DNA of 64,000 bases from Alteromonas macleodii ATCC 27126 (GTDB lineage: Bacteria; Pseudomonadota; Gammaproteobacteria; Enterobacterales; Alteromonadaceae). Below, in pieces: positions 6,875-27,200 of this stretch. A model generated the notes under the pieces. That model did no database searches. It saw only the letters and a list, made by a program, of their open reading frames with translations, and was not told where the DNA came from. Made by a program: the position numbers and the translations under genes. How positions within the stretch are numbered: the stretch's first letter is position 1; each line of letters starts with the position of its first letter. Location of the stretch: assembly GCF_000172635.2 (NCBI RefSeq), contig NC_018632.1, positions 3,410,001 through 3,474,000 on the forward strand. The letters are read 5' to 3'.

Positions 6875-8875
6875 GTGCGTCATATTGGACAAGCTGGAAA
6901 AATCTTTACGCTATCAGCCGTCGCTTCTGTATTGGTGCTAACGGGCTGTGGAAGTACACCTAAAACCCAGTCAAAGCCTGTGGTAGTGGAACCTACCCCA
7001 ATTGAAACCACACAGGTTGAAGATAACGTCACGCCTGAGCACAAACTCCTTGAAGCAAAAAAAGTATGGGAGCGCACCCGCAACAAAGAACAGCGCGATA
7101 CGCTGTTGCTGCAAGCGGCTGACCTGTACCTTCAAAATCAACAGCCCGTTTTGGCTCAGCAAGTGCTATATGAGGTAAAAGAAGACGGTATTTCAGGTGT
7201 AAATCAATCTTATTACGCCCTTCTGGTAACCAAAGCCTATGCGGGAATGCCTGATGCCTCGGCAGAAGAATTGCTGGCTATGTTGGATGGCGTAACCGGT
7301 ACAGGCGAAACCGCATTCCAAAAAGCGGAGCTTCAAACCCAGCTCTTCACGCAGCAAGGCAACCTGGCTGCGGCAGCGAATAGCGTATTAAAGACCAATC
7401 TTACTGACGATGAAAAAGTGCAACAAGTTTGGCAGTGGATTACCTCCATTCCTGCATCGTCACTAGATTCAGTAGGCAGTGCTTATCCCGACCTTTCTCC
7501 TTTCATTACTCTTCGCGAACTAACCGAAGAAAACGCGTCGTCACCGGAAAAATTAGCCAAAAGCCTGCAGCAATTTAAGCAGGTTTATCGCGGTCATGTA
7601 TTAGAAAACGCTTTGCCTGAAAACGTAATTGAAGCAACCCAGCTTACCGATGCTGGCGCCAACGATATTGCGGTTTTACTACCACTTTCTGGCAGGTTAG
7701 CTCGCACAGGACAAGTAGTTAAAAATGGCATCATGGCGGCTTATTACACCGATGTTGAAAAGCGCCAAGATGAACACCTTCTACCTCGTCTTCGTTTTAT
7801 CGACACCAACGAAGTAGATACACAGCATTTACTCAGCGAAATTGGCGATACCAAGTTCATCATTGGCCCTCTTTTAAAAGACACTGTTGAACGTTTAATT
7901 CCCAGTTTGCCGCTTGGTGTGAACGTACTTGCATTAAATAGGCCTGACGAATTGCCAGACAATGCGTCTGCTAAAGGGTTGGCAACAGGATCGTCAAATC
8001 CGGCGATAGCCGATGATGCTCTTGCCTCTGGTACAGGTCTCGCAGGTGATGACACACAAAATGAACTCCACTCATTAGGCTTGCCTACCTCGCTGAATTA
8101 TTACGGGCTAGCACCAGAAGATGAAGCAAAGCAGCTTGCTGAATTTATCTTTAATAAAGGATATCGTGCGCCTATCGTTATTGCCGCACAAAGCAGTCTG
8201 TACCAGCGAATGGACGACACCTTTAAAAAGCACTGGCGAATACTCAACAATCAGGAAAACAAGCAGCGCGCCAACATAACGTCGGTATCGTTTAACGACA
8301 GTAATTCACTTCGAGAGGGAATTACACAGGCGCTAGATGTGGCGCAAAGCAACGAGCGTATCAATCAAATTGAGTACATGACAAATGATGAAGTGTACAA
8401 CATGCCTCGCAGTAGGCGTGATATTGATGCCATTGTTGCATTTGCCTCACCTCAAGACACAGAACTGCTTAACCCCATTATCGAAGCGAGCTTAAACCCT
8501 TACGATGGCAAACAAGTCCCCGTGTATGCCACCTCTCGTTCAATGGATTACGACAGCGGGAAAAACCAATGGCGTGACCTGCAGAATGTGCACTTTATCG
8601 ACATGCCTTGGTTAATGCCTTCACATAGTTGGCAACCTCTTCAGCAGGAGGTTGAACAGGCTTGGCAAAATCAAAATACTATGCAAAAACGTTTATTTGC
8701 GTTCGGTTTTGATGCCTATCAGTTGTTGCCTCAGCTAGGCATGCTTAACACGCTGAAGTATCTTTCACACGAAGGGTTAACGGGTACACTTTCCCTTAAT
8801 CAACAAGGTGAAGTAATACGCAAACAGCCTCAGGCAATTATTCGTAACGAAAAAGTTCAAATGCTTTCGGAGTAA
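6875..8875 (+). CDS. lpoA: Penicillin-binding protein activator, outer-membrane lipoprotein
   Basis: LpoA is an outer-membrane lipoprotein that reaches through the periplasm to activate PBP1A during peptidoglycan synthesis. The GTG start at 6875 is eight bases after AAGGA. The signal peptide ends in the lipobox 'LVLTGC', so Cys is residue 25. A TPR-like N-terminal region (~40-230) is followed by a periplasmic-binding-protein-like domain ('DIAVLLPLSGRLARTGQ', then 'IGPLLKDTVERLIPSLP'). The 666-aa length is normal. A linker around residues 365-400 is rich in Ala/Ser/Gly. It is the first gene of the lpoA-yraN unit. Confidence 0.95.
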   Translation: MRHIGQAGKIFTLSAVASVLVLTGCGSTPKTQSKPVVVEPTPIETTQVEDNVTPEHKLLEAKKVWERTRNKEQRDTLLLQAADLYLQNQQPVLAQQVLYEVKEDGISGVNQSYYALLVTKAYAGMPDASAEELLAMLDGVTGTGETAFQKAELQTQLFTQQGNLAAAANSVLKTNLTDDEKVQQVWQWITSIPASSLDSVGSAYPDLSPFITLRELTEENASSPEKLAKSLQQFKQVYRGHVLENALPENVIEATQLTDAGANDIAVLLPLSGRLARTGQVVKNGIMAAYYTDVEKRQDEHLLPRLRFIDTNEVDTQHLLSEIGDTKFIIGPLLKDTVERLIPSLPLGVNVLALNRPDELPDNASAKGLATGSSNPAIADDALASGTGLAGDDTQNELHSLGLPTSLNYYGLAPEDEAKQLAEFIFNKGYRAPIVIAAQSSLYQRMDDTFKKHWRILNNQENKQRANITSVSFNDSNSLREGITQALDVAQSNERINQIEYMTNDEVYNMPRSRRDIDAIVAFASPQDTELLNPIIEASLNPYDGKQVPVYATSRSMDYDSGKNQWRDLQNVHFIDMPWLMPSHSWQPLQQEVEQAWQNQNTMQKRLFAFGFDAYQLLPQLGMLNTLKYLSHEGLTGTLSLNQQGEVIRKQPQAIIRNEKVQMLSE

Positions 8876-20676: not shown

Positions 20677-20741
20677 CACCACTCAGTCTTCTTCATACCT
20701 AATTCACCTCTACCCTACTTTCAAATAAGCGAGTGATTATC

Positions 20742-21617
20742 ATGAGTGCAGGAAAGAAATTCAGAACCGCATTAGAGAACAACAAACCGCTACAAATTGT
20801 CGGCACCATTAACGCCTATACTGCCATGATGGCAAAGGCTATTGGGCACCAAGCGATTTATCTTTCAGGTGGAGGCGTAGCGAATGCGTCTTACGGCCTA
20901 CCGGATTTAGGCATGACGTCACTTAATGATGTGATTGCAGACGTTCAGCGCATTACCAGCGCGTGCGATCTTCCGCTAATGGTAGACATCGACACCGGTT
21001 GGGGCGGCGCATTTAACATTGCCAAAACTATTCGCGACATGGAAAAAGCAGGCGCGGCGGCAGTTCATATGGAAGACCAGGTTGCGCAAAAGCGCTGTGG
21101 TCACCGTCCTAACAAAGAAATTGTTAGCACAGAAGAAATGGTAGACCGCATAAAAGCTGCAGTTGACGCCAGAACTGACCCAGACTTTTTCATTATGGCG
21201 CGCACCGACGCGTTCGCACAAGAAGGTTTAGACAAAGCCATTGAACGTGCAAAAGCCTATGTTGCAGCAGGTGCTGACGGTATTTTTGCCGAAGCAGTGC
21301 AAACCGAAGAACATTACCGTGCATTTGCTGAAGCGCTAGACGTTCCGATCCTTGCCAATATCACTGAGTTTGGCAAAACCGAACTATGGAATAAAGAAGA
21401 GCTTGGTGAATGGGGTGCCGACATGGTGCTTTACCCACTAAGTGCATTCCGTGCGATGAATAAAGCAGCAGAAATGGTTTACAAATCTATACTTGAAAAC
21501 GGCGACCAAAAAGCCGTTGTCGACAGCATGCAGACACGCATGGAACTGTACGATTATCTTGGCTACCACGAGTACGAGCAAAAACTAGATGCTCTATTCG
21601 CAGAAGGTAAGAACTAA
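20742..21617 (+). CDS. prpB: 2-methylisocitrate lyase
   Basis: PrpB cleaves 2-methylisocitrate to pyruvate and succinate, the last step of the methylcitrate cycle of propionate degradation. The product is 291 aa from the ATG at 20742; a GTG at 20733 would add only three residues. Catalytic-loop and metal-site motifs are clear: '[16 protein letters not shown]', '[19 protein letters not shown]' with the active-site Cys, and '[20 protein letters not shown]'. It follows the GntR gene by 65 bases and begins the catabolic part of the cluster. Confidence 0.97.
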
Positions 21618-21639
21618 CACGAATACGAAACAGCAGGAA

Positions 21640-21797
21640 GCGAGTGAGGTGCGAGGCACCATTGAAGTTGAAACGGTACTCAGGGCGTTACCACGCCGTG
21701 AACCCATCCATGGGGGCTCCGTTTCGGCATCCATGCCTCAAAGGGGTAACGCCCCGTGCACCGCCCCCACTCTCTCGGTGCCTCGCACCCCACTCGC
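21640..21797 (-). repeat. Element A: nested inverted repeat with two NGGA-capped hairpins (prpB-prpC gap)
   Basis: Outer arms at 21640-21660 and 21777-21797 pair at 20 of 21 positions. An inner stem, GGGCGTTACC (21683-21692) with GGTAACGCCC (21745-21754), encloses two small hairpins. Read on the minus strand these are GGCA-TGGA-TGCC (21737-21726) and CCCA-TGGA-TGGG (21714-21703), each with a TGGA loop, separated by GAAACGGAGCCC and followed by TTCACGGCGTG. It fills most of the 259-bp gap. It belongs to the same family as elements B, C and D at 25633-25997. Confidence 0.85.
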
Positions 21798-21876
21798 CTG
21801 ATGAGTTCAATATAGTTTTTATTTCTAAATTTTTAAAAAAGTACCTTACAAATTTTACAAGACCGGAGACAACAAG

Positions 21877-23001
21877 ATGGCTAAACAGTTAAGTGGCGCG
21901 GGTTTACGCGGCCAAGTTGCAGGTAAAACAGCATTATCAACCGTAGGTAAATCAGGTTCTGGTTTAACCTATCGTGGTTACGACGTAAAAGACTTAGCGC
22001 AAAACTGTCAATTTGAAGAAGTGGCGTATCTTATTCTTAAGGGCAAGCTACCTAACCAGTCTGAGCTAGACGCTTATAAAGCAAAACTTCGCGGTATGCG
22101 CGGTCTTCCTTCAGCGCTTAAAGAAGTGCTAGAACGCATTCCTAAAAATGCTCACCCAATGGATGTACTTCGCACGGGTTGTTCAATGCTGGGTAACCTT
22201 GAAATGGAAACGAGCTTTGACCAGCAGCAAGACGTGACAGACCGTATGTTGGCATGCTTCCCAAGTATTATCTGCTACTGGTACCGCTTCTCGCACGACG
22301 GCGTGCGCGTAGATGTTGAAACCGATGACGATTCAATTGGAGGTCACTTCCTTCACATGCTTCACGGTGAAAAGCCACGTGAACTTCATGAACAAGTCAT
22401 GCATGTATCACTCATTCTTTATGCAGAGCATGAATTTAACGCGTCTACCTTCACTGCACGTGTTTGTGCTTCAACCTTATCTGATATGCATTCTTGTGTA
22501 ACCGGTGCTATCGGTTCTCTGCGTGGTCCACTTCACGGTGGTGCTAACGAAGCCGCCATGGAAATGATCGAGGGCTTCACTTCTCCTGATGATGCTGAAG
22601 AGAAGATGATGGGCATGCTTGAGCGCAAAGAGAAGATCATGGGCTTTGGCCACGCTATTTACTCAGACTCTGACCCGCGTAATGAAATTATCAAGCAATG
22701 GTCTGAAAAACTCGCTGCTGATGTGGGTGACGACGTACTTTACCCTGTGTCTGTTCGCTGTGAAGAAGTGATGTGGCGCGAGAAGAAGCTTTTCTGTAAC
22801 GCCGATTTCTTCCATGCCTCTGCGTATAACTTTATGGGTATCCCTACGCCATTGTTTACACCAATCTTCGTAATGTCTCGTCTAACTGGTTGGGCAGCAC
22901 ACGTTATGGAACAGCGCGCTGACAACCGTATTATTCGTCCGTCAGCAGAATACACAGGCGAAGAACTACGCCCAGTGCCTGCTATCAGCGAACGCGCTTA
23001 A
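21877..23001 (+). CDS. prpC: 2-methylcitrate synthase
   Basis: PrpC condenses propionyl-CoA with oxaloacetate to 2-methylcitrate. The 374-aa product is of normal length and shows citrate-synthase family motifs: 'GSGLTYRGYDVKDLAQNC' near the N-terminus, 'GSLRGPLHGGANEAAMEMI' with the catalytic His, and 'MGFGHAIYSDSDPRNEII' with a second catalytic His. The ATG follows a CCGGAGAC ribosome site. It is 18 bases upstream of acnD and certainly cotranscribed with it. It is separated from prpB by element A. Confidence 0.96.
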   Translation: MAKQLSGAGLRGQVAGKTALSTVGKSGSGLTYRGYDVKDLAQNCQFEEVAYLILKGKLPNQSELDAYKAKLRGMRGLPSALKEVLERIPKNAHPMDVLRTGCSMLGNLEMETSFDQQQDVTDRMLACFPSIICYWYRFSHDGVRVDVETDDDSIGGHFLHMLHGEKPRELHEQVMHVSLILYAEHEFNASTFTARVCASTLSDMHSCVTGAIGSLRGPLHGGANEAAMEMIEGFTSPDDAEEKMMGMLERKEKIMGFGHAIYSDSDPRNEIIKQWSEKLAADVGDDVLYPVSVRCEEVMWREKKLFCNADFFHASAYNFMGIPTPLFTPIFVMSRLTGWAAHVMEQRADNRIIRPSAEYTGEELRPVPAISERA

Positions 23002-23019
23002 GATTAAGGTTGGGGTTTT

Positions 23020-25611
23020 ATGAATATTGATTACCGTAAACCGCTTCCTAACGCGGGTATCGATTTTTTCGATACCCGTGAAGCGGTAGATGCTATTGAG
23101 CCTGGCGCCTACGCCAAGCTGCCTTACACCTCACGTGTACTGGCTGAGAACTTGGTGCGTAAATGCGCCCCTGAAATGCTTACCGACTCACTTAAACAGC
23201 TGATTTATCGCAAGCGCGACTTGGACTTTCCGTGGTTTCCTGCTCGCGTGGTGTGTCATGATATCTTAGGGCAAACGGCACTGGTAGACTTAGCGGGCCT
23301 TCGCGATGCTATTGCAGCAAAAGGCGGCGATCCGGCGAAGGTTAATCCCGTTGTTCCTACGCAGCTGATTGTTGACCACTCGTTAGCCGTTGAACACGCT
23401 GGTTTTGAAAAAGACGCGTTTGAGAAAAACCGTGCAATTGAAGACAGACGTAACGACGACCGTTTCCACTTTATCAACTGGACGAAAACCGCGTTTAAAA
23501 ACGTGGATGTTATCCCTCCAGGTAACGGCATTATGCACCAAATCAACTTGGAGCGTATGTCGCCGGTTATTCAAGCTCGCGACGGCGTAGCCTTCCCTGA
23601 CACGCTAGTAGGTACCGACAGCCACACGCCGCATGTTGATGCACTTGGTGTTCTTGCTGTGGGTGTGGGTGGTCTTGAAGCGGAAAGCGTTATGCTGGGC
23701 CGTGCGTCATATATGCGCTTGCCTGATATTGTAGGTGTTGAGCTAACGGGCAAACCACAGCCAAGCATTACGGCTACCGACATTGTATTAGCGTTAACTG
23801 AATTTTTGCGTAAAGAGCGCGTAGTCTCTGCTTATCTTGAATTCTATGGTGAAGGTGCATCGCACCTGACGCTGGGCGACCGTGCTACCATATCGAACAT
23901 GACACCGGAATACGGCGCCACTGCAGCCATGTTTTACATTGACCAGCAAACCATCGATTACTTACGCCTAACAGGGCGTGAGGAAAAGCAAATTGCGCTA
24001 GTTGAGCAATATGCTAAGCACACAGGTTTATGGGCTGATGATTTAGAAACTGCCGAGTATGAGCGGGTGCTTACGTTCGACCTTTCTGCTGTTGGCCGTA
24101 ACATGGCTGGCCCTTCTAACCCACACGCACGTTTACCTACCAGCGATTTAGAAAGTCGCGGTATAGCAGCGAAGTGGACCGAGGAGGAAGGCAAAATGCC
24201 TGATGGCGCGGTTATTATCGCGGCTATCACCAGCTGTACCAATACATCTAACCCACGCAATGTAATTGCTGCAGGTTTACTTGCTCGAAATGCCAACGCG
24301 CGCGGTTTAACCCGTAAGCCGTGGGTTAAGAGCTCACTAGCACCAGGCTCTAAGGCCGTTAAGCTGTATCTTGAAGAAGCTAACCTGATGAGCGAGCTGG
24401 AAGATTTAGGCTTTGGCGTCGTTGCCTTTGCGTGTACTACCTGTAACGGTATGAGCGGCGCGCTTGACCCCAAAATTCAGCAAGAGATCATCGACCGCGA
24501 TCTTTACTCAACAGCAGTATTGTCGGGTAACCGTAACTTCGACGGCCGTATTCACCCTTACGCAAAGCAAGCATTCTTAGCATCGCCACCACTGGTTGTA
24601 GCTTACGCCATCGCCGGTACCATTCGCTTTGATATTGAAAAGGACGTATTGGGCACCGACAAAGAAGGCAACCCAGTAACGCTTAAAGACATTTGGCCAA
24701 GCGACGAAGAAATTGACGCTATTGTAGCGAAATCGGTAAAGCCAGAGCACTTCAGAAAAGTGTACGAGCCAATGTTCGACCTTAGCGTTGACTACGGAAA
24801 AGACATTAACCCGCTTTATGACTGGCGTGAAATGAGCACCTACATTCGTCGCCCGCCCTATTGGGAAGGCGCAATGGATGCTGAGCGCACCATGAAAGGT
24901 ATGCGTCCACTGGCTATTTTGGGAGATAACATCACCACCGATCACTTGTCGCCTTCAAACGCTATTTTAGCCAGCAGCGCGGCAGGTGAATACCTCCACA
25001 AAATGGGCTTACCGGAAGAAGACTTTAACTCGTATGCCACACACCGTGGTGACCACTTAACCGCACAGCGCGCTACCCTTGCGAACCCGAAAGTGTTCAA
25101 CGAGATGGTGCTGGAAAACGGTGAAGTGAAGCAAGGTTCACTGGCGCGCGTTGAGCCAGAAGGACAAGTTATGCGCATGTGGGAAGCTATTGAGACCTAC
25201 ATGAACCGCAGACAGCCGCTGATTATTGTTGCTGGCGCTGACTACGGTCAGGGCTCGTCACGAGACTGGGCAGCCAAAGGCGTGCGCCTTGCGGGTGTTG
25301 AAGTCATTGTGGCTGAAGGTTTCGAACGTATTCACCGTACTAACCTTATCGGTATGGGCGTATTACCCCTTGAGTTTAAACCGGGAACTACGCGTAAAAC
25401 ACTAGAGCTAGATGGCACAGAAACTTACGACGTAAGCGGCGAACCGTCACCAGGTGCAACGCTAACACTGGTAGTGAACCGTCAAAACGGCGAGCAACTA
25501 GACGTGCCGGTAACCTGTCGCTTAGATACAGCAGAAGAAGTCTCTATTTACAGCGCAGGCGGTGTATTACAGCGCTTCGCCAAGGACTTCTTAGAAGCTG
25601 AAGCTAGCTGA
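23020..25611 (+). CDS. acnD: Fe/S-dependent 2-methylcitrate dehydratase (AcnD)
   Basis: AcnD is an aconitase-like enzyme that dehydrates 2-methylcitrate to 2-methyl-aconitate, replacing PrpD. The 863-aa product has the 4Fe-4S ligands in 'AITSCTNTSNPRNVI' and 'FACTTCNGMSGALDP', 'LVGTDSHTPHVDALGVL' near residue 197, and the swivel domain with 'IIVAGADYGQGSSRDWAAKGV'. The AcnD branch needs PrpF, which is encoded next. A 407-bp gap with three structured repeats separates it from prpF. Confidence 0.95.
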   Translation: MNIDYRKPLPNAGIDFFDTREAVDAIEPGAYAKLPYTSRVLAENLVRKCAPEMLTDSLKQLIYRKRDLDFPWFPARVVCHDILGQTALVDLAGLRDAIAAKGGDPAKVNPVVPTQLIVDHSLAVEHAGFEKDAFEKNRAIEDRRNDDRFHFINWTKTAFKNVDVIPPGNGIMHQINLERMSPVIQARDGVAFPDTLVGTDSHTPHVDALGVLAVGVGGLEAESVMLGRASYMRLPDIVGVELTGKPQPSITATDIVLALTEFLRKERVVSAYLEFYGEGASHLTLGDRATISNMTPEYGATAAMFYIDQQTIDYLRLTGREEKQIALVEQYAKHTGLWADDLETAEYERVLTFDLSAVGRNMAGPSNPHARLPTSDLESRGIAAKWTEEEGKMPDGAVIIAAITSCTNTSNPRNVIAAGLLARNANARGLTRKPWVKSSLAPGSKAVKLYLEEANLMSELEDLGFGVVAFACTTCNGMSGALDPKIQQEIIDRDLYSTAVLSGNRNFDGRIHPYAKQAFLASPPLVVAYAIAGTIRFDIEKDVLGTDKEGNPVTLKDIWPSDEEIDAIVAKSVKPEHFRKVYEPMFDLSVDYGKDINPLYDWREMSTYIRRPPYWEGAMDAERTMKGMRPLAILGDNITTDHLSPSNAILASSAAGEYLHKMGLPEEDFNSYATHRGDHLTAQRATLANPKVFNEMVLENGEVKQGSLARVEPEGQVMRMWEAIETYMNRRQPLIIVAGADYGQGSSRDWAAKGVRLAGVEVIVAEGFERIHRTNLIGMGVLPLEFKPGTTRKTLELDGTETYDVSGEPSPGATLTLVVNRQNGEQLDVPVTCRLDTAEEVSIYSAGGVLQRFAKDFLEAEAS

Positions 25612-25632
25612 TTGTGATAGGAAGACCTTTCA

Positions 25633-25739
25633 GTGGGAGGAGGTGAATCAGTCATAGGGCACGCCCTAAATACGTCCCTATAGGCTCCCAACTCGCATCC
25701 TTGCGAGTTGAGGGCCCTGAAACTAATCCACCTCCTCCG
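25633..25739 (-). repeat. Element B: structured inverted repeat, minus orientation (acnD-prpF gap, first of three)
   Basis: On the minus strand the outer arm GGAGGAGGTGGATTAGT pairs with the opposite end (GGAGGAGGTGAATCAGT when complemented), allowing a few mismatches. Inside are a 9-bp hairpin, CAACTCGCA-AGGA-TGCGAGTTG (loop at 25701-25698), and a weaker one, TATA-GGGA-CGTA (loop at 25678-25675). GGGAGCC comes before the second hairpin and TTTAGGGCGTG after it. The order of parts is the same as in elements A, C and D. Confidence 0.8.
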
Positions 25740-25761
25740 TAGCTAGTATCAGCTAGTTTGG

Positions 25762-25860
25762 TTGGAAGCTGTTTGTGATTTGAAACCCTCCAGCCGCAAG
25801 GATGCGGCTGGGGAGCGCACATGGATGTGTTCACAGCGTGTTTCAAATCACGAACAACCT
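25762..25860 (+). repeat. Element C: structured inverted repeat, plus orientation (acnD-prpF gap, second of three)
   Basis: The left arm beginning near 25761 (GGTTGGAAGCTGTTTGTGAT) pairs with the right arm ending at 25860 (complement AGGTTGTTCGTGAT), with a few mismatches, and both run into GATTTGAAAC. Inside are CCAGCCGCA-AGGA-TGCGGCTGG (9 bp, loop 25799-25802) and CACA-TGGA-TGTG (loop 25822-25825), followed by TTCACAGCGTG. The two GGA triplets are 23 nt apart. Confidence 0.82.
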
Positions 25861-25895
25861 TACTTCTCTCCAGATAAAATAGTTTTTAGTTTAAG

Positions 25896-25997
25896 AGTGC
25901 GTTGAGGCACGGTTGAAACCTTCGGGGCGCATGGACGCGCCCCGAGAGCCTACAAGGATGTATTTACGGCGTGTTTCAACTGTGCCTCAACGCACTC
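25896..25997 (+). repeat. Element D: structured inverted repeat, plus orientation (acnD-prpF gap, third of three)
   Basis: The outer arms are the best of the set. GAGTGCGTTGAGGCAC (25896-25911) continuing to GGTTGAAAC pairs with the stretch ending at 25997 at 24 of 25 positions. Inside are TCGGGGCGC(A)-TGGA-CGCGCCCCGA (loop 25932-25935) and TACA-AGGA-TGTA (25951-25962), followed by TTTACGGCGTG. The second hairpin matches the 11 bases UACARGGAUGU of the published CsrA consensus. It ends 21 bases before the prpF start codon. Confidence 0.85.
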
Positions 25998-26018
25998 ATA
26001 CCGACGAAAGGAAAAAAC

Positions 26019-27200
26019 ATGACAAAGTATGCGCCACAACTTCGAGTACCGGCTACCTACATGCGTGGCGGTACCAGTAAGGGTGTGTTTTTCAATTTAA
26101 CCGATTTGCCAGAAGCCGCGCAAAAGCCAGGTCCGGCGCGCGATGCCCTGCTTCTGCGCGTAATTGGCAGCCCCGATCCGTACGGTAAACAAACCGACGG
26201 TATGGGCGGTGCTACATCAAGTACCAGCAAAACCGTTATCTTAAGCAAAAGTGAACGTGAAGGTTACGATGTGGACTATCTATTTGGTCAAGTAGCCATA
26301 GACAAGCCATTCGTAGACTGGAGTGGAAACTGCGGAAACCTAACGGCAGCCGTAGGCGCATTTGCGATAACCAATGGGCTAGTGAATAGAAGTAAATTAC
26401 CAGAAAACGGCATTGCCACCGTCAATATTTGGCAAGCCAATATCAACAAAGCCATTATCGCTAAGGTGCCAATGACTAACGGGGAAGTACAGGAAACGGG
26501 CGACTTTGAACTAGACGGTGTCACCTTCCCTGCCGCAGAAGTAGAAGTAGCCTTTGTTGACCCAGCTGACGGTGAAGGGGCAATCTTCCCGACAGGACGA
26601 TTAGTCGACACACTTGAAGTTCCAGGCGTAGGCTCACTTCAGGCGACCATGATAAACGCGGGTATTCCGACTATTTTCATCAACGCAGAAGATATTGGCT
26701 ACACAGGCACTGAACTGCAGGATGATATAAACAGCGACTCCGAGGCGCTGTCCAAGTTCGAAGCAATTCGTGCACACGGCGCGGTTCAGATGGGGCTCAT
26801 CAATGATGTGGGTGAAGCTGCAAACAGGCAGCACACACCAAAAGTCGCGTTCGTTGCACCTCCAAGAGGTTACCAAGCTTCCAGTGGCAAAGATATTTTG
26901 GGTTCAGACATTGATGTATTGGTTCGCGCACTGTCTATGGGGAAACTTCATCATGCTATGATGGGCACGGCAGCAGTCGCGATCGCAGCGGCTGCGGCGA
27001 TACCCGGCACTCTTGTAAATATCGCAGCTGGCGGCGACGAAAGAGACTCGGTTACTTTTGGGCATCCATCTGGAACGCTTAGAGTAGGAGCAAGAGCTAC
27101 GTTTGAAGACGACAAGTGGCAAATTAAGCAAGCTGTAATGAGCAGAAGCGCACGTATTTTGATGGAAGGCTCCGTGCGTGTTCCCGCTGAACAAAGTTAG
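26019..27200 (+). CDS. prpF: 2-methylaconitate cis-trans isomerase
   Basis: PrpF isomerises the 2-methyl-aconitate made by AcnD into the form that aconitase can hydrate to 2-methylisocitrate. The ATG at 26019 has GAAAGGA 6-12 bases upstream. An in-frame ATG at 25971 lies inside the right arm of element D and is rejected. The 393-aa product shows the PrpF marks 'PATYMRGGTSKGVFFNL', 'GGATSSTSKTVILS' and 'DWSGNCGNLTAAVGAFAI' with the active-site Cys. It completes the AcnD/PrpF branch of propionate catabolism. Confidence 0.96.
   Translation: MTKYAPQLRVPATYMRGGTSKGVFFNLTDLPEAAQKPGPARDALLLRVIGSPDPYGKQTDGMGGATSSTSKTVILSKSEREGYDVDYLFGQVAIDKPFVDWSGNCGNLTAAVGAFAITNGLVNRSKLPENGIATVNIWQANINKAIIAKVPMTNGEVQETGDFELDGVTFPAAEVEVAFVDPADGEGAIFPTGRLVDTLEVPGVGSLQATMINAGIPTIFINAEDIGYTGTELQDDINSDSEALSKFEAIRAHGAVQMGLINDVGEAANRQHTPKVAFVAPPRGYQASSGKDILGSDIDVLVRALSMGKLHHAMMGTAAVAIAAAAAIPGTLVNIAAGGDERDSVTFGHPSGTLRVGARATFEDDKWQIKQAVMSRSARILMEGSVRVPAEQS

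Follow-up and report, generated by a model that had tools for sequence, protein, structure and literature searches.

Closest described systems

TwoAYGGAY (RF01731), which shares the Rfam clan CL00106 with CsrB, was proposed in 2014 to be a CsrA-binding RNA on the basis of motif matches, and its external stem is poorly conserved (PMC4333381). Ysr224 (Yersinia sRNA 224, RF02770), catalogued as a small RNA (sRNA), was highly prevalent in a survey (PMC9029176). YPAL, also named RU-2, is a 168-bp palindromic mobile sequence of Yersinia (PMC2759123, with the RU-2 sequence in its Table 1b); empty as well as filled sites led to the prediction that it was recently mobile, its duplications measure 3–26 bp and its targets span or adjoin dyads (PMC2229807), and its counts in Yersinia are tabulated in PMC2267715 and PMC2847712. 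Four palindromic elements, here called A to D, lie in the propionate operon of Alteromonas macleodii ATCC 27126 (NC_018632.1, positions 3,410,001–3,474,000; this stretch of 64,000 nucleotides is the window, to which coordinates refer). They are a divergent branch of a TwoAYGGAY/YPAL superfamily that is known but scattered and has not been recognised as one. In the literature searched, no paper joining YPAL, TwoAYGGAY and Ysr224 was found, and among the papers listed for 16–17-mers of the core, PMC2759123 alone contained one.

Architecture and covariation

Elements A and B are carried by the minus strand and C and D by the plus strand, and they share the order of parts described in the initial annotation, both on reading of the sequence and according to a covariance model (R1) built from an alignment of 22 copies of the genus (A1). 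R1 scores C at 85.1, D at 83.8, A at 74.3 and B at 66.8 bits, values that are not independent because the model was built from D and relatives of A–C; the next-best match in the window reaches 12.3 bits (E 0.19). Repeat searches recovered C and D as a 67-nt repeat (76%) and also found the arms of all four elements. The RNA folding z-scores are −10.0 for A, −9.4 for B, −6.0 for C and −10.0 for D, none of 200 shuffles being equally stable for any of them. The arms of D form 24 Watson-Crick pairs and one G-T out of 25, as had been counted, and the 53-base arms of A form nested stems interrupted by internal loops.

In order along the element, the consensus consists of a long basal stem (P1), a linker and hairpin 1, whose ANGGAN loop is closed by a C-G pair, followed by GAGC; then come a triplet and hairpin 2, which again bears C-ANGGAN-G, and finally TTYAC, GCGT and the return arm of P1. 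The partner of the triplet GCC (or GCG, GGC) is a downstream GGC (or CGC, GCC), and this pairing covaries in the tip, outside the arms. Changes on both sides of a pair affect 21 of the 25 pairs in A1. A second alignment (A2) gathers 103 R1 matches, or 93 distinct rows, from loci of some 30 genomes, all but three of the matches lying outside the A. macleodii genome. In A2, 96.3% of the cells are paired, against only 34–52% in slid controls, and double-sided changes reach 23 of 25 pairs, both figures being biased upward because A2 was fitted to the structure of the model. In neither alignment did any of 500 shuffles score as high. The three-way junction proposed in the initial annotation thus covaries in A1 and A2, and the compensatory variation around a conserved core that it had read from four copies holds in these wider data. 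Its "NGGA tetraloops" are better described as C-G closed hexaloops ANGGAN, from which hairpin 2 of B (TAGGGACG) deviates.

P1 has a median length of 26 bp, and 67 of 87 distinct copies lie between 23 and 37 bp. Its sequences are unrelated between most copies, including copies of one genome; clustering of 175 arms at 60% identity gives 59 clusters.

Relation to Rfam families and named repeats

At gathering cut-offs, no Rfam family matches in the window. A relaxed scan of 21500–26100 (E <= 10) gave four matches, all below cut-off. On the strand complementary to C and D, Ysr224 reaches 31.1 and 23.5 bits, respectively, below its cut-off of 70, and matches to mir-3547 and Hrs13 in the window were taken as chance. 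The cut-off of RF01731 (43 bits) is not reached either, and no match to this family was found at E <= 10 in 21500–26100 or in the whole genome. The relationship appears through relatives. Genome G245 carries 12 RF01731 places, 11 of them above cut-off, and R1 matches all 12 on the same strand at 50.0–57.1 bits. Among the matches listed at E <= 10, RF01731 has 19 places in 12 genomes; of the 18 compared (16 fetched and two within loci L181 and L184, one place of genome G308 being left out), R1 overlaps 17 on the same strand, and the sole place without an R1 match, in G309, is at chance level (E 4.8). The comparison with Rfam proposed in the initial annotation therefore names two relatives, TwoAYGGAY and, on the other strand, Ysr224, but leaves the window copies below both cut-offs. 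The match to a known RNA family that it had named as an argument against its reading is thus partly found, in relatives and not in the window copies.

Like the window element, TwoAYGGAY has an outer stem of low conservation that ends, on the same strand, in two GGA hexaloop hairpins. Unlike it, the window element has ANGGAN loops that are not strictly AYGGAY, and the additional conserved linkers GAGC and TTYACNGCGT. Three loci of G245 (L314, L323 and L324) hold divergent pairs of two subtypes, the minus copy being a lower-scoring TwoAYGGAY-like one and the plus copy a high-scoring R1-like one; among these loci, the minus copy exceeds the RF01731 cut-off in L314 only.

Ysr224 corresponds to the complementary strand of the window-element core. 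In the Sodalis locus L261, a Ysr224 match above cut-off (7247–7352 minus, 82.9 bits) lies opposite an R1 match (7235–7318 plus). According to the P1 mismatches described below, the strand that carries the Ysr224 annotation is not the folded one, and the prevalence of this family may reflect a repeat instead of an sRNA gene. By reading, the RU-2 palindrome printed in PMC2759123 holds the same core as the window element, with two GGA hairpins, GAGCC and TTTACGGCG. YPAL/RU-2 differs from the window element in its arms, length and ends, and the 168-bp unit as such is not matched, the window arms looking unrelated, by reading only, to those printed there.

Two other groups share part of these features. 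CsrB and RsmY/Z also carry paired GGA-loop hairpins near RUACARGGAUGU (PMC4347634). The window element differs from them by two sites on a three-way junction, several copies per genome and the lack of any own promoter seen. CsrB carries many CsrA sites in a row. Repetitive extragenic palindromic (REP) sequences, the REP doublets forming hairpins called REPINs and bacterial interspersed mosaic elements (BIMEs) are, like the window element, intergenic palindromes that are often inverted neighbours; the window element has no conserved GTAG tag and does not always co-occur with a Y1 transposase.

Over 17 of 18 named element loci (Stenotrophomonas, Xanthomonas, Marinobacter, Rheinheimera and others), no Rfam family matches the element at cut-off. 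Matches to miRNA families on long stems were also set aside, and sX9, found near a Xanthomonas locus, does not overlap the element. In Xanthomonas dyei (L228, 2408–6285), three sX9 matches surround two element copies, and this "sRNA" itself resembles a dispersed repeat.

If the grouping is correct, three separately catalogued things (TwoAYGGAY, Ysr224 and YPAL) would be one superfamily, one member of which (Ysr224) is filed on the non-folded strand and much of whose membership escapes Rfam.

Which strand folds

In P1, G-T and A-C mismatches should be equally frequent by chance, as a single event reads as one of them on one strand and as the other on the opposite strand. The arms were taken from 212 matches of A2 and of a further set, A3, after removal of 36 with fewer than 10 pairs (some of them short because an insertion shifts the register) and of duplicates. 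The resulting 151 distinct arms contain 133 G-T versus 22 A-C. When one arm is kept per 60% cluster (59 clusters), the counts are 59 G-T to 10 A-C (p 1e-9), 22 G-A to 3 C-T (p 2e-4) and 9 G-G to 0 C-C (p 0.004). In divergent gene gaps, there are 10 G-T and no A-C. The excess of G-T over A-C indicates that the GGA-loop (NGGA) strand is the strand kept foldable.

This asymmetry bears on the idea that the copies are neutral fossils of a miniature inverted-repeat transposable element (MITE), their arms being repaired by template-switch correction of quasi-palindromes and their tip being conserved by descent. Perfect arms (44 of 151), the decayed copies that have lost their tip and the element-free gaps described below would all accord with it. 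Template switching should erase G-T and A-C alike, whereas 59 to 10 are observed, as well as 22 G-A to 3 C-T; moreover, the loops are conserved across the some 30 genomes of A2, and a covarying triplet lies in the tip and not in the arms. Such a fossil is therefore improbable.

Paired loops and CsrA

Most copies have the hexaloop ANGGAN with its C-G closure in both hairpins. Of 201 copies, 172 retain CANGGANG and 194 retain GGA in hairpin 1, R1 matches being biased towards this loop because the model carries it. Hairpin 1 was absent from the pattern used to scan the collection; hairpin 2 was included in the pattern used for A3, so its conservation in A3 is not independent. Both loop motifs are present in 122 of 141 cores, and 114 of these 122 have them 23 nt apart. 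In hairpin 2, an A-U then a U-A pair are preferred outside the closing C-G (75 and 76 of the 93 rows of A2, one gapped), which yields UACANGGANGUA, near RUACARGGAUGU, the consensus obtained for CsrA by systematic evolution of ligands by exponential enrichment (SELEX; PMC4347634). The stretch UACAAGGAUGU at hairpin 2 of D matches positions 2–12 of this consensus (PMC4347634). Among the window copies, all loops fit ANGGAN, with a closing T-G instead of C-G in loop 2 of B; the strict AYGGAY fits A in both loops, C and D in one loop each, and B in neither. CsrA is a homodimer whose motifs occur in pairs (PMC4333381), and paired GGA hairpin loops in RUACARGGAUGU-like sites, as expected of a CsrA/RsmA-binding RNA, are what these elements carry. 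The likeness to the CsrA/RsmA motif is strong, yet it is a resemblance. The A. macleodii genome encodes one CsrA match (E 1.1e-24).

Judging from the sequences, docking of CsrA by RNA of the NGGA strand of a formerly mobile palindromic repeat seems the most likely function, and we hold this with moderate confidence. The proposed process can be summarised as follows. The NGGA strand is kept foldable as a long variable P1 topped by two hairpins with C-ANGGAN-G loops 23 nt apart. As RNA, its two loops would dock on a single CsrA/RsmA dimer, one on each face. Every copy that is transcribed would thereby be a small CsrA-binding site, which could act as a CsrA sponge or in local control, for instance D just before prpF. 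The element would have spread as a mobile palindrome, the sequence of P1 drifting freely while its pairing persists. CsrA docking by these copies would connect dispersed mobile repeats to the CsrA network, a connection between CsrA and repeats or MITEs that no paper was seen to make among the search matches listed, and the CsrA prediction made for TwoAYGGAY in 2014 (PMC4333381) would become directly testable.

Several observations weigh against CsrA docking. The loop of hairpin 2 of B deviates from the CsrA motif. No promoter-like or terminator-like site was seen in 25560–26060, and the base composition beside 141 copies gives no hint of a promoter or T-run. Where genes run in tandem, antisense copies are more numerous than sense ones (50 versus 30, p 0.033). 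The strand asymmetry persists where both flanking genes are on the other strand (42 G-T, 8 A-C), and in prp operons both antisense copies (27 to 2) and sense copies (20 to 4) show it, in related species that are not independent. Neither this strand constraint, which does not depend on gene direction, nor the antisense excess is as expected of an element acting in cis in the host mRNA. A strand-specific mutation bias may mimic the asymmetry, although no physical reason for one is apparent. G-T makes up only 59 of 1680 P1 pairs (3.5%), a small share, RNA helices being expected to hold about 10%. CsrA shows no significant association with the element, being present in 49 of 53 element genomes versus 186 of 221 others (p 0.19; as for the Y1 transposase below, presence was counted by eye and the relatedness of genomes was not corrected). 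Genome G255, 98% complete and with nine copies, yields no credible CsrA but sub-threshold noise only; the less complete element genomes G067, G128 and G159 also lack it.

Since the NGGA strand is foldable whatever the gene direction, the folded molecule may be either an RNA independent of host genes or single-stranded DNA. According to the latter view, which we consider rather unlikely but which is the main rival of CsrA docking, the NGGA strand would fold as single-stranded DNA during replication or transposition and a transposase, of the HUH (Y1) or another type, would recognise it as in REP/REPIN sequences, the CsrA likeness being coincidental or secondary. The independence from gene direction and the low share of G-T point this way, and the order of mismatches tolerated in P1 (G-T, G-A, then A-C and G-G, few C-T and no C-C) is near the stability order of DNA mismatches. 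Divergent pairs (minus then plus), typical of REPINs, dominate among elements at most 450 bp apart, making up 21 of the 33 pairs of neighbours when these are counted per locus without removal of overlapping loci. The Y1 transposase, which has one match in the A. macleodii genome (E 1.6e-12), occurs in 42 of 53 element genomes versus 144 of 221 others (p 0.051), but 11 of the 53 lack Y1_Tnp, including four with at least 14 counted copies (G128, G132, G138 and G298). Neither the CsrA nor the Y1 presence test is decisive. Folding as DNA would also leave unexplained that both loops fit the CsrA motif and that a relative sits in the CsrB clan of Rfam. By reading, GTAG/CTAC occurs at hairpin 2 of D only, so that the REP tag is missing from A, B and C, and 13 listed copies of G308 display no replication-strand bias by eye, when the origin is assumed at base 1.

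A broader and more tentative view, possible without being the favoured one, combines mobility with CsrA docking. The element would be a class-wide mobile palindrome whose sole conserved cargo is a tip docking a CsrA dimer, on one strand regardless of host-gene direction; it would be selfish, either recruiting CsrA for its own spread or scattering CsrA sponges across genomes, and it would unite TwoAYGGAY, Ysr224 and YPAL.

Occurrence, mobility and decay

As the initial annotation had suspected, the element occurs in many genera of the class: R1 (E <= 0.001) matches in 53 of 274 Gammaproteobacteria genomes drawn and in 47 of 222 genera, the counts per genome being lower bounds since at most 16 candidates were scored in each. 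In a phylum draw of 349 genomes, whose number of genomes outside the class is not stated, the 23 matching ones (E <= 1e-5) are all Gammaproteobacteria. The core pattern is found in at least 119 stretches of genome contigs, versus three of viral contigs for the exact pattern; among the matches listed, every named host belongs to the Gammaproteobacteria (Stenotrophomonas, Xanthomonas, Marinobacter, Microbulbifer, Rheinheimera, Shewanella, Sodalis, Alteromonas and others). Pattern matches occur in 20 of 36 genomes of the genus, that of A. macleodii included, and in 7 of 24 other genomes of the order. Single copies gave no blastn match in E. coli, plasmids or phages, a negative that is weak because the arms are copy-specific. 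Pattern matches are arrayed at 113–125 bp spacing in the relatives G013, G024, G028 and G029, and G508 carries six tandem copies spaced by about 227 bp (contig C1, 94429–95647).

Signs of mobility come from G308, where eight copies of equal model score lie at unrelated places, each inside a MITE-like unit of about 160 bp flanked by TA, TATACC...GGTATA, with the core at its tip (L127–L139). Identical dispersed copies with TA-flanked ends indicate transposition of one branch. Both halves of the alternative left by the initial annotation, a structured RNA or a mobile palindromic element, are thus supported, by the covarying junction and by these dispersed copies, respectively. Terminal inverted repeats with a TA duplication are seen in the G308 copies and, by reading, not in the window copies; in the genomes other than G308, the arms of copies have diverged.

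In the genus, R1 elements lie in the acnD-prpF gap of 14 of 30 loci and in the prpB-prpC gap of 16 of 30, with 0 to 4 per gap, the model having been run only on loci with visible elements. Each of these two gaps holds the element in about half of the 30 loci examined, and in the prpB-prpC gap it is found in either orientation. By reading, these gaps also contain hybrids (G030, G025) and deletions (G028, G020), with decayed copies deprived of their tip in the prpB-prpC gap of G028 and the acnD-prpF gap of G020. In the close relatives G008, G024 and G030, the acnD-prpF gap has 10–11 bp and no element. No clean empty site was found in the genus, and such element-free gaps may be deletions; for the G028 gap, a deletion is likelier than an empty site because the core is present in most element-bearing relatives.

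Gene contexts were assigned by a simple open reading frame (ORF) rule that could not place 74 of 201 copies; as spurious ORFs arise from long palindromes, counts "inside ORF" were disregarded. Copies lie in convergent gaps more often than in divergent ones (35 versus 12), as would be expected of a transcript-end element of the sense mRNA, which would serve as a terminator, a stabiliser or an RNase III processing site, chiefly by means of P1. This explanation is very improbable: no T-run follows the stem, a mere stem needs no conserved loops, linkers or preferred strand, and hairpin 1 is intact in 26 of 30 sense copies versus 46 of 50 antisense ones (p 0.46), so that the sense copies are not the better preserved.

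The propionate locus and its four copies

The propionate operon of the window has the gene order prpB, prpC, acnD, prpF; element A occupies the prpB-prpC gap, and B, C and D the acnD-prpF gap, with 18 nt between the end of D and the prpF start codon (Table 1).

Table 1. Elements A–D, their loops and the surrounding prp genes (window coordinates; loop sequences on the element strand)
Feature	Position	Strand	Details	Basis
Element A	21640..21797	-	nested palindrome, antisense to operon; model match 21678-21759	repeat search, folding, covariance model
A hairpin 1 loop and closing pair	21728..21735	-	CATGGATG	sequence, model alignment
A hairpin 2 loop and closing pair	21705..21712	-	CATGGATG; 23 nt from loop 1	sequence, model alignment
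Element B	25633..25739	-	3' of acnD; model match 25646-25728; arms 25636-25660 / 25714-25738	repeat search, folding, covariance model
B hairpin 1 loop	25696..25703	-	CAAGGATG	sequence
B hairpin 2 loop	25673..25680	-	TAGGGACG, first base deviates from CANGGANG; 23 nt from loop 1	sequence, model alignment
Element C	25762..25860	+	model match 25772-25854; arms 25770-25786 / 25840-25856	repeat search, folding, covariance model
C hairpin 1 loop	25797..25804	+	CAAGGATG	sequence
C hairpin 2 loop	25820..25827	+	CATGGATG; 23 nt downstream of loop 1	sequence
Element D	25892..26000	+	model match 25905-25987; arms 25892-25919 / 25973-26000	sequence, repeat search, folding, covariance model
D hairpin 1 loop	25930..25937	+	CATGGACG	sequence
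D hairpin 2 loop	25953..25960	+	CAAGGATG within UACAAGGAUGU; 23 nt downstream of loop 1	sequence
prpB (context)	20733..21617	+	methylisocitrate lyase	NCBIfam equivalog
prpC (context)	21877..23001	+	2-methylcitrate synthase	NCBIfam equivalog
acnD (context)	23020..25611	+	Fe/S-dependent 2-methylisocitrate dehydratase	NCBIfam equivalog
prpF (context)	26019..27200	+	2-methylaconitate isomerase	NCBIfam equivalog

The whole genome contains seven copies by pattern search and nine by the covariance-model search that had been suggested, the four of the window included, and the same model finds further copies in the class. The locus is a local hot spot, with four of the nine copies inside 4.4 kb of one operon (21640–26000). 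Two copies of this genome, located at unrelated places near 3848698 and 4103733 (L004 and L005), have in common the 3' tail TTTCAGAGGGCACAACAATCACGAACTAAATCGCAGG and are without the long matching left arm.

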